The notes under the pieces were generated by a model, which ran no database searches, was not told the DNA's origin, and was given only the letters and a program-made list of their open reading frames with translations. A DNA stretch of 12,605 nucleotides from the NCBI GenBank assembly GCA_013205525.1, contig JABMMR010000266.1, forward strand, positions 1-12,605. The letters are read 5' to 3'. Shown here piece by piece: positions 3,121-6,096 of the stretch. This stretch comes from Burkholderiales bacterium (lineage in GTDB: Bacteria > Pseudomonadota > Gammaproteobacteria > Burkholderiales > Burkholderiaceae_C). Made by a program: the position numbers and the translations under genes. Position 1 is the stretch's first letter, and each line of letters begins with the position of its first letter.

Positions 3121-3495
3121 TCAGTGGCCGCAAATATTAAAAACAGCGTCAAAGCGTTTCAGCGCGGCGTTCAACAGCTTGGTATGTCCAGTACCCCAAG
3201 GGTGCGGTCGTGCATTTCGTTGTCTCCAATCAAATGACTTGGGCTGGTGAGTAAGCAAGTAGCCCATCTCGCCTTTTGAGCCGTGGGCGGCGATCGCAAA
3301 TGGATTGTCAGCGTGTTGAGCGGAGTGAGTCATTGGGAAACCCATCACAACGCTGGTTTTCTCTGCAAACGACTGAGTTGAAATAACGAGCATCGGATGA
3401 TCATTGGGCATTTCAACGCCCACATGGGGGCTGTACTGAATGAAAATAATTTCAGCACGCTCGGGGACCCACAACGCAGATTTACGCGTGGCCAT
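3121..3495 (-). CDS. mazF: MazF/PemK-family toxin (endoribonuclease)
   Basis: Toxin half of a type II toxin-antitoxin pair; MazF-family proteins cut RNA at short sequences. The 124-residue protein fits the PemK/MazF fold: the early strands read ERAEIIFIQYSP (12-23), then HPMLVIS (33-39), FPMT (53-56) and the family block KSFDWRQR (86-93), corresponding to KSIDWRAR in E. coli MazF. The E. coli catalytic Arg29 in HRP aligns with His33 here (DHP), while the nearby Thr is retained at Thr56. From memory, a His-Pro at this point occurs in a proteobacterial MazF subfamily, so it need not mean inactivity. ATG 3495 was chosen because it overlaps the mazE stop as TGATG, giving translational coupling; an adjacent upstream TTG is less likely. 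It ends 46 bases from the secreted-protein gene, which is convergent. Confidence 0.88.
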   Translation of the reverse strand: MATRKSALWVPERAEIIFIQYSPHVGVEMPNDHPMLVISTQSFAEKTSVVMGFPMTHSAQHADNPFAIAAHGSKGEMGYLLTHQPKSFDWRQRNARPHPWGTGHTKLLNAALKRFDAVFNICGH

Positions 3496-3743
3496 CAAGC
3501 AAAGGCCTCAACGCCCCGTGGTGCATCAGCCATCAGCTCGCCACCGTGCTTTACGGGATCGAATGCCGCCAACATCTCGTCAAAAGTGGGCTCTGTTTCT
3601 GCCTCAATCACAATTCGACCGGGCTCAACTGTGACACGCACAGGCGTTCCTTCAACAACGCCTGCGGTCTTTGCCATCGGCTTTGTGAGTCGAAGAGCCA
3701 GACCATTGCCCCAAACGCTTATTTGACTGATGACAGAACTCAT
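3495..3743 (-). CDS. mazE: MazE-family antitoxin (AbrB/SpoVT-like DNA-binding)
   Basis: Antitoxin partner of the adjacent toxin. MazE proteins bind DNA through an N-terminal swapped-hairpin domain and neutralise MazF with a flexible C-terminal tail. The 82-residue product shows the family signature ISQISVWGNGLALRLTK at 5-21 (compare KRWGNSPAVRIP in E. coli MazE), followed by GTPVRVTVEPGRIVIE, and an acidic tail with EPTFDEMLAAFDP (50-62), the usual toxin-binding type. The start is decided by the ribosome site: AGGAG at 3751-3755 is 7 bases from the ATG at 3743 but only 1 base from the ATG at 3749. The stop overlaps the toxin ATG. A canonical promoter and an operator lie just upstream, consistent with autorepression by MazE alone or with MazF. 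Confidence 0.9.
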   Translation of the reverse strand: MSSVISQISVWGNGLALRLTKPMAKTAGVVEGTPVRVTVEPGRIVIEAETEPTFDEMLAAFDPVKHGGELMADAPRGVEAFA

Positions 3744-3765
3744 TTGCATGCTCCTAGTTGTTGGC

Positions 3766-3785
3766 ACAAGTGTATAAACACTTGT
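3766..3785. promoter_or_regulatory. Palindromic operator of mazEF
   Basis: Perfect inverted repeat: ACAAGTGT (3766-3773), spacer ATAA, ACACTTGT (3778-3785). It covers the -10 box and part of the spacer of the mazEF promoter, the expected place for an autorepression site bound by MazE or the MazE-MazF complex. A degenerate second set of TTGT/ACAA half-sites follows toward 3800. No T-tract follows, so it is not an intrinsic terminator for the gene upstream. Confidence 0.7.
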
Positions 3786-3797
3786 TTGTCGTGTCAA
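3769..3797 (-). promoter_or_regulatory. Sigma-70 promoter of mazEF
   Basis: On the minus strand a perfect -35 box TTGACA (3797-3792) is followed after exactly 17 bases by TACACT (3774-3769) as the -10 box. Transcription should start near 3762, about 19 bases before the mazE ATG, with AGGAG between. The -35 box covers the stop codon of the enolase-like gene (3796-3794), so the toxin-antitoxin promoter is embedded in the end of the gene ahead of it. Confidence 0.75.
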
Positions 3798-5077
3798 CAA
3801 ATGTGTCTACGTCCGAACATCTTCCCCGCAAACACCGCTTCCCCGCCCAAAGCCTCTTCAATCCGCAAGCCCTCATTCCATTTGGCCATGCGCTCAGACC
3901 GCGCAAACGAGCCCACCTTCAGCTGCCCCGTGTCCCAACCGACAGCTAAGTGAACGATGGCGGTGTCCTCGGTTTCGCCAGAACGGGCCGAGACCACCAT
4001 GCCCCAGCCGGCAGCGCGGGCCACCTCCATGGCTTGCACAGTCTCGGTGATGGTGCCAATTTGGTTGGGCTTGAGCAGTACCGCATTGCAGACTTTGTCT
4101 TGAATGGCCTGAGCCACCAAACTGGCTTGGGTCACCAAATAATCGTCGCCCACCACCTGAATTCGTTGGCCTACGGCGTTAGTGAACGCCTGCATTCCAG
4201 CCGTATCTCCTTCGGCAAACGGGTCTTCCACCGAGATGATGGGGTATTTGTTGACCCAGCCCAACAGCACTTGCAGCCAAGCTTCGCTGTCAAATTCTTG
4301 CTGCTCTAAACCCAGCTTGTAAGCGCCGGCACGGCCAAATTCGGAGGCGGCAATGTCCAGCGAAATAGCCACTTGGTCGTAGCGATAGCCCGCCGCGTCG
4401 ATGGCGCGTGTCAGGGTTTGCAGCGCTTCTTCATTGGAGTCAAACACCGGCCACCAGCCGCCTTCGTCGGCCACACCGGCGAGCTTGCCCGCCGCCGCCA
4501 TGAGCTTGCCCGCCGCGTGATAAACATTGGCCACCATCTCCAGCGCCTCACTGAAACTTTGGGCACCCACGGGCATGACCAAAAAATCTTGGATATCCAC
4601 CCGTCGACCGGCGTGGGCACCGCCGCCAAAAATTTGAATTTCTGGCAGGGGCAGGCGTACCGGTTTGCCGCCAGCCAAATAACGCCACAGCGGCTGGTGT
4701 TCGCTGGCTGCGGCAGATTGCAGCACCGCCAGCGAGGTGGCAATCGTGGCATTGGCGCCCAAGCGGCTTTTCAGCGGCGTGCCGTCAAGCGCGATCAATA
4801 CCTGGTCGACGCGAGCTTGGTCTGTGGCATCCATGCCTTGCAGGGCTTGGGCAATAGGCCCATTCACCTGCGCCACCGCTTGGCTGACATCCAAGCCGCC
4901 CAGCAGGGGGCCGCCGTCGCGCAACTCCAGGGCCTCGCGGCTGCCGCGTGAAGCGCCCGCAGGCGCTACGCCTCTCCCAAGGGCACCGTTGCTCAGTTGC
5001 ACATCCACTTCTATGGTGGGGCGACCACGCGAGTCCCAAATACGCCGTGCATGCAGGTGTTGAATCGTGGTGCTCAT
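3794..5077 (-). CDS. Divergent enolase (phosphopyruvate hydratase) family paralogue
   Basis: A full-length enolase-fold protein of 427 residues. Conserved features by analogy with yeast and E. coli enolase: metal ligands Asp241 (LDIAASEF), Glu284 (SVEDPF) and Asp311 (VVGDD); Glu205 in ADEGG; the catalytic-base lysine Lys336 in LLKPNQIG; Lys387 in LKVGS; and His155 in GGAHA. Differences from canonical enolase: the lid loop PSGASTG is PAGASRG (39-45); VDIQEF is VDIQDF, so Glu becomes Asp164; and SHRSGETED is SARSGETED, so the substrate-contact His (yeast His373) is Ala364. It may therefore be a slow enolase or act on a different phosphorylated hydroxy-acid. The main eno gene of these bacteria usually sits with pyrG and kdsA, so this is probably a second copy. 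The ATG at 5077 overlaps the kinase stop as TGATG; a TTG at 5080 is less likely. Confidence 0.85.
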   Translation of the reverse strand: MSTTIQHLHARRIWDSRGRPTIEVDVQLSNGALGRGVAPAGASRGSREALELRDGGPLLGGLDVSQAVAQVNGPIAQALQGMDATDQARVDQVLIALDGTPLKSRLGANATIATSLAVLQSAAASEHQPLWRYLAGGKPVRLPLPEIQIFGGGAHAGRRVDIQDFLVMPVGAQSFSEALEMVANVYHAAGKLMAAAGKLAGVADEGGWWPVFDSNEEALQTLTRAIDAAGYRYDQVAISLDIAASEFGRAGAYKLGLEQQEFDSEAWLQVLLGWVNKYPIISVEDPFAEGDTAGMQAFTNAVGQRIQVVGDDYLVTQASLVAQAIQDKVCNAVLLKPNQIGTITETVQAMEVARAAGWGMVVSARSGETEDTAIVHLAVGWDTGQLKVGSFARSERMAKWNEGLRIEEALGGEAVFAGKMFGRRHIC

Positions 5078-6096
5078 CAAGGTGTCCAGTGTTGTCGCAG
5101 GGTTTGCAAAAGGGCGGCGGGTTGCAGCAAAAACGCTTTGGCGAAGTGTCTGACCTGCTCGCGCTGGTGGTCGGTGGTAATGTATTCAACTGGCGACTTG
5201 CCATCCACCCGCGCCAACAACATGCCCGCCAGCAAAGCGCAGGTGCGCGCTTCAAGTGCGGCGCGGTCTTCCCAGTTGACCGCAGACAAGTAGCTGTTGG
5301 CCAGAGCATCAAAACAGTCAAGGTAGGCCGCGTGGTGAGCGGGTTTCCACAGGCATTTGAGCAGCAAATGGTTGAGCACAAACGCCAAGTCGAAAGCTGG
5401 GTCGCCGTACCAAGCGCATTCGGCGTCTAAAAACACCGGGCCGTGTGGGCCGACCAAAATATTTTTCGGGCTGACGTCGCCGTGCACCAAGGCATGTTTG
5501 TGCATCAGGGTTTGCTTGACCAAGCCATGCAAAGCCTCGGCGCAATCGGGGTGGCGCAGGGCCGTGGCATTGAAATAAGGGTCTAAGCGAATGGCGATGA
5601 AATCTGCATCATGGTCAAACGCTTGGGCTAAATAAGCTTGGCCGGCGCTGGCTGCATGCCAAGTGGCTAAACAGTGGGCAACTCGCTGCGCTGTCTGGCT
5701 GTTGACCACACCAGCCTGCAACTGGTTTTTCCACACAGGGTGTTGCTCGGATGGCAAAAAAGCCATGGCAAACACGCAGTCTTGCTCGTCTTCGCCCAAC
5801 AGCGCTGGAACCGCATGGGGCAGGTGCTGGGCAGCAAACCGCAACCATGCCACCTCGTCTCGGTTGCGCTTGACAGGCGCCTCCCACAGCGCGGCCACCT
5901 TCAGCTGCGGCAAAGCGCGTTTGAGGCAAAAGCTCTGCCTTGGCGTGTCGACTCGCACGATGAGGGAGGACACGCCGCCGGTCAAAGCTGTGAAAGTGGG
6001 CGTTTCATGGGGCAGCAGCAAACCCATGCGTTGCAAGGGCGGCAACAACGCTGCTAACTCTTGCGACGCGGATGGCTGGTCTGGTGAAGAGTTCAT
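5077..6096 (-). CDS. APH/choline-kinase-fold phosphotransferase, substrate unknown
   Basis: A 339-residue small-molecule kinase of the aminoglycoside phosphotransferase superfamily. Visible motifs: a nucleotide-loop region TGGVSS (39-44); a likely ATP-anchoring Lys59 in FCLKRAL; the catalytic loop HGDVSPKN (205-212) with base Asp207 and Asn212; and the metal-binding FLDAE (222-226) with Asp224, followed by WYGDPAFDLAF. The family phosphorylates aminoglycosides, choline, methylthioribose, homoserine and other hydroxyl compounds, and the substrate cannot be told from sequence. Antibiotic resistance is unlikely given the operon setting. It lies 15 bases after ftsY and overlaps the enolase-like start as TGATG, so the kinase product may feed the enolase-like enzyme. 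No Shine-Dalgarno is visible before the ATG at 6096, which suggests coupling to ftsY translation. Confidence 0.85.
   Translation of the reverse strand: MNSSPDQPSASQELAALLPPLQRMGLLLPHETPTFTALTGGVSSLIVRVDTPRQSFCLKRALPQLKVAALWEAPVKRNRDEVAWLRFAAQHLPHAVPALLGEDEQDCVFAMAFLPSEQHPVWKNQLQAGVVNSQTAQRVAHCLATWHAASAGQAYLAQAFDHDADFIAIRLDPYFNATALRHPDCAEALHGLVKQTLMHKHALVHGDVSPKNILVGPHGPVFLDAECAWYGDPAFDLAFVLNHLLLKCLWKPAHHAAYLDCFDALANSYLSAVNWEDRAALEARTCALLAGMLLARVDGKSPVEYITTDHQREQVRHFAKAFLLQPAALLQTLRQHWTP

Follow-up and report, generated by a model that had tools for sequence, protein, structure and literature searches.

The enolase paralogue in the window (the whole stretch of 12,605 nucleotides that we analysed) has a kinase partner: a gene of the APH family lies directly upstream of it, and a homologue of this kinase is present at nearly all of the loci that encode the paralogue. 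Because the kinase is so constantly beside the paralogue, the product of the kinase is very probably the paralogue's substrate. We are reasonably confident that this kinase-coupled substrate is something other than 2-phospho-D-glycerate. Few known enzymes are as conserved as enolase, and databases label the paralogue family as enolase or phosphopyruvate hydratase. If the family does catalyse another reaction, then many genomes are wrongly annotated at a central step, and the pair is an unnamed new entry into central metabolism. The kinase also offers a handle on the question, as its phosphorylation target should be the paralogue's substrate.

The paralogue (427 amino acids; 3794–5077, minus strand) has an intact frame that begins with the ATG at 5077 and has no internal stop, and its relatives carry the annotation phosphopyruvate hydratase. 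It matches both enolase domains in Pfam (Enolase_N, 155.2 bits; Enolase_C, 317.2 bits) and scores 489.6 bits against the NCBIfam eno model, above the cut-off of 300. The original prediction was of an enolase with a rewired active site, with changes at three places, and all three (PAGASRG, QDF, and SARSGETED with its Ala364) are indeed present in this frame. The alignment bears out their correspondence to Ser36, Thr40, Glu168, and His373 of yeast enolase, with Ala364 at His373. (The yeast row of the alignment is what we take to be the yeast sequence and serves for residue numbering only.) In the lid loop PAGASRG (residues 39–45 of the paralogue; 4943–4963, minus strand), Ser36 is replaced by Ala and Thr40 by Arg, and Ser39 is kept. 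The loop FGGGAHAGRRVDIQDF (4583–4630, minus strand) has Gly for Asn155 and Asp for Glu168 and keeps His159; QDF is residues 163–165 of the paralogue. DEGGWW (4451–4468, minus strand) has Trp for Ala215 and keeps the catalytic Glu211, and SARSGE (3974–3991, minus strand) has Ala for His373 and keeps Arg374 and Ser375. The metal ligands (D246, E295, and D320 in yeast numbers) and the lysines (K345 and K396) are kept as well, as predicted. A predicted structure of the paralogue has a mean pLDDT of 85.2, with values below 50 at residues 153–156 and 204–206; these weak stretches are active-site loops.

The kinase (339 amino acids; 5077–6096, minus strand; PF01636, 67.3 bits) overlaps the paralogue by a single base, as its stop and the enolase start share position 5077 (TGATG). 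Its best curated match is S-methyl-5-thioribose kinase, which is also of the APH family, but the score of 59.6 bits is below that model's cut-off of 275. By tblastn, a kinase homologue is present at 121 of 125 paralogue loci, and in 97 it is directly upstream on the same strand. (The 125 loci represent 112 distinct genes, including the window's own, and 38 of the loci are shorter than 5 kb.) Three of the four loci without a kinase reach a contig edge upstream (L035, L054, and L070); the fourth, L049, has no kinase within the 10 kb covered. In longer neighbourhoods, the kinase is present in 33 of 33 (counted without self-queries) and directly upstream in 30 (a count for which the queries included the kinases of L161 and L162 themselves); nine of these neighbourhoods revisit genes of the 125-locus set. 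In contrast, none of 23 ordinary-enolase loci (4.2–7.3 kb each) has a homologue of the kinase. The motif HGD-x-SPKN is found in all 119 kinases of 300–380 amino acids that we took from the loci. Distances between kinases and between enolases are correlated across 54 loci (r = 0.59, with none of 2000 permutations as high), but common descent alone would give the same result. We found no paper on the pair or on the enolase-paralogue family in the literature searched, which covered few subscription journals and was queried partly with narrow terms.

The changes in the active site are shared by relatives of the paralogue. Among the best 120 homologues, PAGASRG is found in 118, SARSGE in 119, and QD followed by F or L in 119. 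We also compiled a set of 245, made up of loci with an identity of 54% or more, proteins from databases, and the window's own gene; these relatives were picked by identity and include near-copies. All 245 have Asp168 and Ala373, as well as Gln152, Gly155, Ala209, and Trp215, and 244 have Ala36; the metal ligands, Lys345, Lys396, Glu211, His159, Arg374, and Ser375 are unchanged in all 245. So, the changes at Ser36, Glu168, and His373 are conserved among these relatives, but the predicted change of Thr40 to Arg is not shared by the whole family: this position is R in 201 relatives, T in 38, M in 4, C in 1, and K in 1, in a set that is biased toward the window's order. Further fixed changes that the original prediction had missed include N152Q, N155G, L193A, G209A, A215W, and Y409W. 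When 253 distinct paralogues were compared with 56 ordinary enolases, 15 columns proved to be fixed for different residues (at least 95% in both), and 62 are common to both (at least 99%). (This comparison sorted its rows by residue 373, so it is circular for that column, for which the evidence is the set of 245, sorted by identity. It also left out two deep rows and P0053, a row of neither kind.) The paralogue is under purifying selection: dN/dS against six relatives is 0.07–0.11, and it is 0.12–0.17 for the kinase, with dS saturated for two of the relatives. In one carrier from the order sample (L116), a TAA lies inside the paralogue frame, and this copy may be a pseudogene. One database protein (P0017) has a front part with PAGASTG that is unlike the window's and a rear part that is nearly identical to it; recombination and an assembly chimera are candidate causes.

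What the changed residues do can be read from the enolase of S. elongatus. According to the structural study, a water in the complex with phosphoenolpyruvate (PEP) lies 3.5 Å from C3 and is hydrogen-bonded to His367 and Glu168, and Lys339 takes the proton from the opposite side; another figure legend there names Glu209 and Glu168 for the C3 water (PMC8996150). By motif, we mapped His367, Glu168, Lys339, and Glu209 to His373, Glu168, Lys345, and Glu211 in yeast numbers; the mapping is our own. As His373 and Glu168 hold the C3 water in true enolase, the paralogue probably has another leaving group or other surroundings for it. And because these water-holding residues are replaced in every one of the 245 relatives while the core is kept, we infer that part of the C3 leaving-group site has been rebuilt, whereas binding of a 2-phospho carboxylate and removal of the C2 proton would, judging from the residues, have been retained.

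The paralogues also form a group of their own. In a maximum-likelihood tree, a single branch splits 45 paralogues from 28 ordinary enolases (support 100/99), and this split is found in all 200 bootstrap trees; a tree without the deep rows splits 60 paralogues from 21 ordinary enolases (100/100). Thus, paralogues and ordinary enolases do lie on opposite sides of one branch, and the window's gene does not group with the ordinary enolases. (The ordinary rows are mostly from Burkholderiales, three long rows are flagged in the 45-versus-28 tree, and some rows were labelled as paralogue or ordinary by residue 373.) The 45 include the deepest relatives with Ala373, which are on plasmids of Persicobacter (Bacteroidota) and Rhodococcus opacus. 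Both have Asp168, Ala209, Ala373, and Trp409, and both retain Ser36; the Rhodococcus protein has Gly215 and Ser155. Each has a kinase directly upstream, with an identity to the window's kinase of 37% in Persicobacter and 36% in Rhodococcus, so only those first four residues accompany the kinase throughout. Within the window's genus, two genomes (L204 and L205) carry another subtype of the paralogue, with PAGASKG, about 60% identity, its own kinase, and a different neighbourhood.

The window's gene is not the only enolase in its genome. An ordinary copy, with PSGASTG, QE, and SHRSGETED, is also found in the assembly (1.86 Mb in 356 contigs, 82.8% complete), on contig C309; it is cut by the contig end and sits behind a gene that we read as kdsA. 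In a sample of the order, the paralogue is present in 26 of 200 genomes, including the window's own (at least 58% identity and at least 459 bits, among the matches listed); the remaining listed matches reach at most 413 bits, at 46–51% identity. All 26 carriers have at least one further enolase among their listed matches. Carriers number 25 of 84 genomes in the window's genus (in some of them as fragments that lie at the ends of contigs), 10 of 397 in a sample of the phylum, and 12 of 199 in one family of the phylum. The paralogue belongs to the accessory genome. When a collection of species genomes was scanned, at least 542 relatives were found among at least 588 pattern matches, and titles among the best 80 of these include Burkholderiales, several alphaproteobacterial groups, Streptomyces, and bins called Vicinamibacterales and Phycisphaerales. 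Some public metagenome bins have doubtful-looking titles: Bordetella parapertussis for L003, L012, and L042, and Klebsiella pneumoniae for L030. The nearest matches are in the window's genus for the L003 gene, in a betaproteobacterial bin for L012, and in a Baikal bin for L030.

Overall, the paralogue is like enolase (EC 4.2.1.11) in having both Pfam domains, the metal ligands, the lysines, Glu211, His159, Arg374, and Ser375, and is 45–51% identical to it in the listed matches from the order and phylum samples. It differs in its supported branch, in five replacements (His373 to Ala, Glu168 to Asp, Ala215 to Trp, Ser36 to Ala, and Asn155 to Gly), and in its kinase partner and accessory distribution. 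The ordinary enolase in the same genome, the conservation of the changes, and the kinase partner support the idea that the enzyme was re-purposed for another substrate, but the accompanying analogy to phosphonate pathways is not supported. In phosphonate pathways, carboxyphosphonoenolpyruvate synthase and other relatives of enolase are paralogues that have turned to another phospho acid. By gene context, the window's paralogue would seem to differ from these: no phosphonate-biosynthesis gene, such as one for PEP mutase, is annotated in five annotated plasmid neighbourhoods. We also recognised none among the other neighbours that were read by eye or partly scanned.

On balance, we think that the two enzymes catalyse successive steps of a catabolic module, which would supply central metabolism by way of a 2-phospho three-carbon hydroxy acid. 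In the first step, the kinase would phosphorylate the 2-hydroxyl of X-CH2-CH(OH)-COOH. In the second, judging from the kept residues, two metals together with Lys396, Arg374, and Ser375 of the paralogue would hold the 2-phospho acid; Lys345 would take the C2 proton; and Glu211 would protonate the C3 leaving group, to give PEP and HX. Most probably, X is something other than D-glycerate's plain hydroxyl, or else its surroundings differ. That X is not OH at all and that the product is PEP itself is a more tentative proposal, which might well be wrong. Equally tentatively, the pair might open up 3-substituted lactates (such as 3-O-methylglycerate, 3-sulfolactate, or 3-aryl ethers) by phosphorylation at C2 and expulsion of the 3-substituent, which would yield PEP directly, in the Proteobacteria, Streptomyces, Rhodococcus, and the Bacteroidota plasmid where the pair is found.

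Judging from the neighbouring genes, the supply of the hydroxy acid may differ between bacteria: an X-pyruvate might be reduced by a D-2-hydroxyacid dehydrogenase, a 2,4-diketo-3-deoxy sugar acid might be hydrolysed, or an aldolase and an aldehyde dehydrogenase might act together. (Many of the neighbours were named by eye, and most family matches are below curated cut-offs.) A D-2-hydroxyacid dehydrogenase is present somewhere in 41 of the 125 loci, and in several it overlaps its neighbour. Other neighbours include LacI regulators and transporters of the sugar, TRAP, or branched-chain type. Sugar dehydrogenases, an IlvD-type dehydratase, and short-chain dehydrogenases lie beside the pair in Roseibium, Paracoccus, and another family, and galactonate-type dehydratases are found in some of the sugar-acid neighbourhoods. 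The same three groups have a hydrolase that is nearest the model for 2,4-didehydro-3-deoxy-L-rhamnonate hydrolase (346–362 bits in three loci, cut-off 500); such a hydrolase would release a three-carbon hydroxy acid along with pyruvate. In Persicobacter, the gene directly before the pair encodes an aldehyde dehydrogenase, and aldolase, isomerase, and sugar-kinase genes are further off on the other strand. PEP carboxylase is found in only 5 of the 125 loci, and on three annotated Rhizobium plasmids it adjoins the dehydrogenase and the kinase; PEP carboxylase points to PEP. The routes differ, and a three-carbon 2-hydroxy acid could be the end point of several; some of the neighbouring genes may serve other pathways. 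Among the closest relatives of the window, the pair lies between ftsY and rpoH. In the window, a PemK/MazF-like toxin gene (3121–3498, minus strand) and a probable antitoxin gene (3495–3800, minus strand) are directly 3' of the enolase, and this toxin/antitoxin pair looks inserted because five related loci (L003, L004, L005, L007, and L009) have a homologue of rpoH, instead of the toxin pair, after the enolase.

As to the identity of HX, no gene that would dispose of sulfite, methanol, or phenol was recurrent among the loci that had been collected when we checked (loci fetched later were left out). For sulfite there were suggestive single neighbourhoods: a sulfite-dehydrogenase-like pair at one Methylobacterium locus and TauE-like genes at two loci, all named by eye, and, in Persicobacter, a gene that distantly resembles the model for sulfoquinovose isomerase (159 of 700 bits). 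For methanol or methoxyl chemistry, the gene trio of the Rhodococcus locus has FolD and PurU beside it, together with a LigM/DesA-like protein (282 bits against a cut-off of 800 and 264 against 580), and L057 has one-carbon genes. (A second one-carbon match, L111, is the same gene as L057.) An aromatic substrate was suggested by a ring-cleavage set (an HpaD-like extradiol dioxygenase, a CMD protein, a Zn-alcohol dehydrogenase, an HpaG-like protein, and a cupin) in 21 of the 125 loci, from Paraburkholderia and relatives, rhizobia, and Streptomyces. This set is confined to one clade of the tree (100/99), where 7 of the 11 rows have it and four lack it. Neither the sulfite nor the methoxyl genes recurred among the loci checked, and all three ideas remain leads.

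Some known systems are similar in part. Phosphosulfolactate synthase (ComA) joins PEP and sulfite to give 2-phospho-3-sulfolactate, which is the chemical reverse of one candidate reaction of the paralogue. ComA belongs to another protein family, and use of a sulfonate by the paralogue family is a candidate only. In the diketo-hydrolase route of the L-rhamnose type, a sugar dehydrogenase and a dehydratase lead to a three-carbon product. In Paracoccus, the proposed end step of the sulfofucose route is the SuyAB sulfolyase, and a search of that paper's text finds no mention of enolase (PMC12421959). Like these two routes, several of our loci have a sugar dehydrogenase, a dehydratase, and a potential three-carbon hydroxy-acid or hydroxy-aldehyde product beside the pair.

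The fairest rival to the proposed module is a dedicated isozyme for D-glycerate, with the kinase as a new D-glycerate 2-kinase and the paralogue as a modified true enolase that converts 2-phospho-D-glycerate to PEP. Most neighbourhoods would fit plain D-glycerate equally well, and HMMER still scores the paralogue as an enolase equivalog, which argues against a change of substrate. The combination of hydroxyacid dehydrogenase, kinase, enolase, and PEP carboxylase resembles the lower limb of the serine cycle, and in one genome of the window's genus the pair is accompanied by an aldolase that is nearest the HpaI/GarL models and by a relative of tartronate-semialdehyde reductase (both below cut-offs). 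However, an ordinary enolase is already in the genome, and the replacement of both leaving-water residues in all 245 relatives, along with several of their neighbours, would be needless for a mere isozyme. So, this explanation seems unlikely to us. A related reading, which the original prediction gave as its alternative, is that the paralogue may be a slow enolase; the study of the S. elongatus enzyme puts the catalytic efficiency of ordinary enolase near 10^5 per M per s (PMC8996150). Another reading is a mirror-image enolase: the kinase would turn L-glycerate into 2-phospho-L-glycerate, which the paralogue would dehydrate to PEP. This would account for the pairing of a dedicated kinase with a dedicated enolase and for the fact that no gene is needed to handle HX, and the hydrolase of the sugar-acid loci is closest to an enzyme of the L-rhamnose route. 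But the kept Arg374, Ser375, Lys345, and Lys396 suggest that phosphate, carboxylate, and C2 proton are placed as in the D form, and Pfam names the family of the neighbouring dehydrogenase as D-specific, which makes the mirror-image reaction very improbable. (2-Phospho-L-glycerate is sold commercially, according to PMC13228409.)

The leaving group could also still be a hydroxyl if C3 carried an extra substituent, so that a 2-phospho aldonic acid of at least four carbons would give a substituted PEP. Replacement of His373 and Ser36 by Ala and of Glu168 by Asp could open room around C3, and there are sugar-acid genes in several neighbourhoods. We saw no recurrent enzyme for processing a substituted PEP, though, and the PEP carboxylase of some rhizobia hints at unsubstituted PEP as the product, so we consider this quite improbable. 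Finally, the replacement of two active-site residues might mean that the protein is catalytically dead or moonlighting and is kept for regulation or binding. This is hardly credible given that all 245 relatives retain the metal ligands, the two lysines, and Glu211, that dN/dS is low against the six relatives (including the two with saturated dS), and that the gene is linked to a kinase.

Ordinary-type enolases also have neighbours of their own on some plasmids. On Sinorhizobium pSinA (L155), such an enolase adjoins a universal-stress protein and the arsenic genes arsH and arsK, and an Agrobacterium plasmid match (H27) likewise adjoins a universal-stress protein. On the p2 plasmid of Cupriavidus pinatubonensis (L160), PEP carboxylase is followed by an ordinary-type enolase and then by otnK and otnC.
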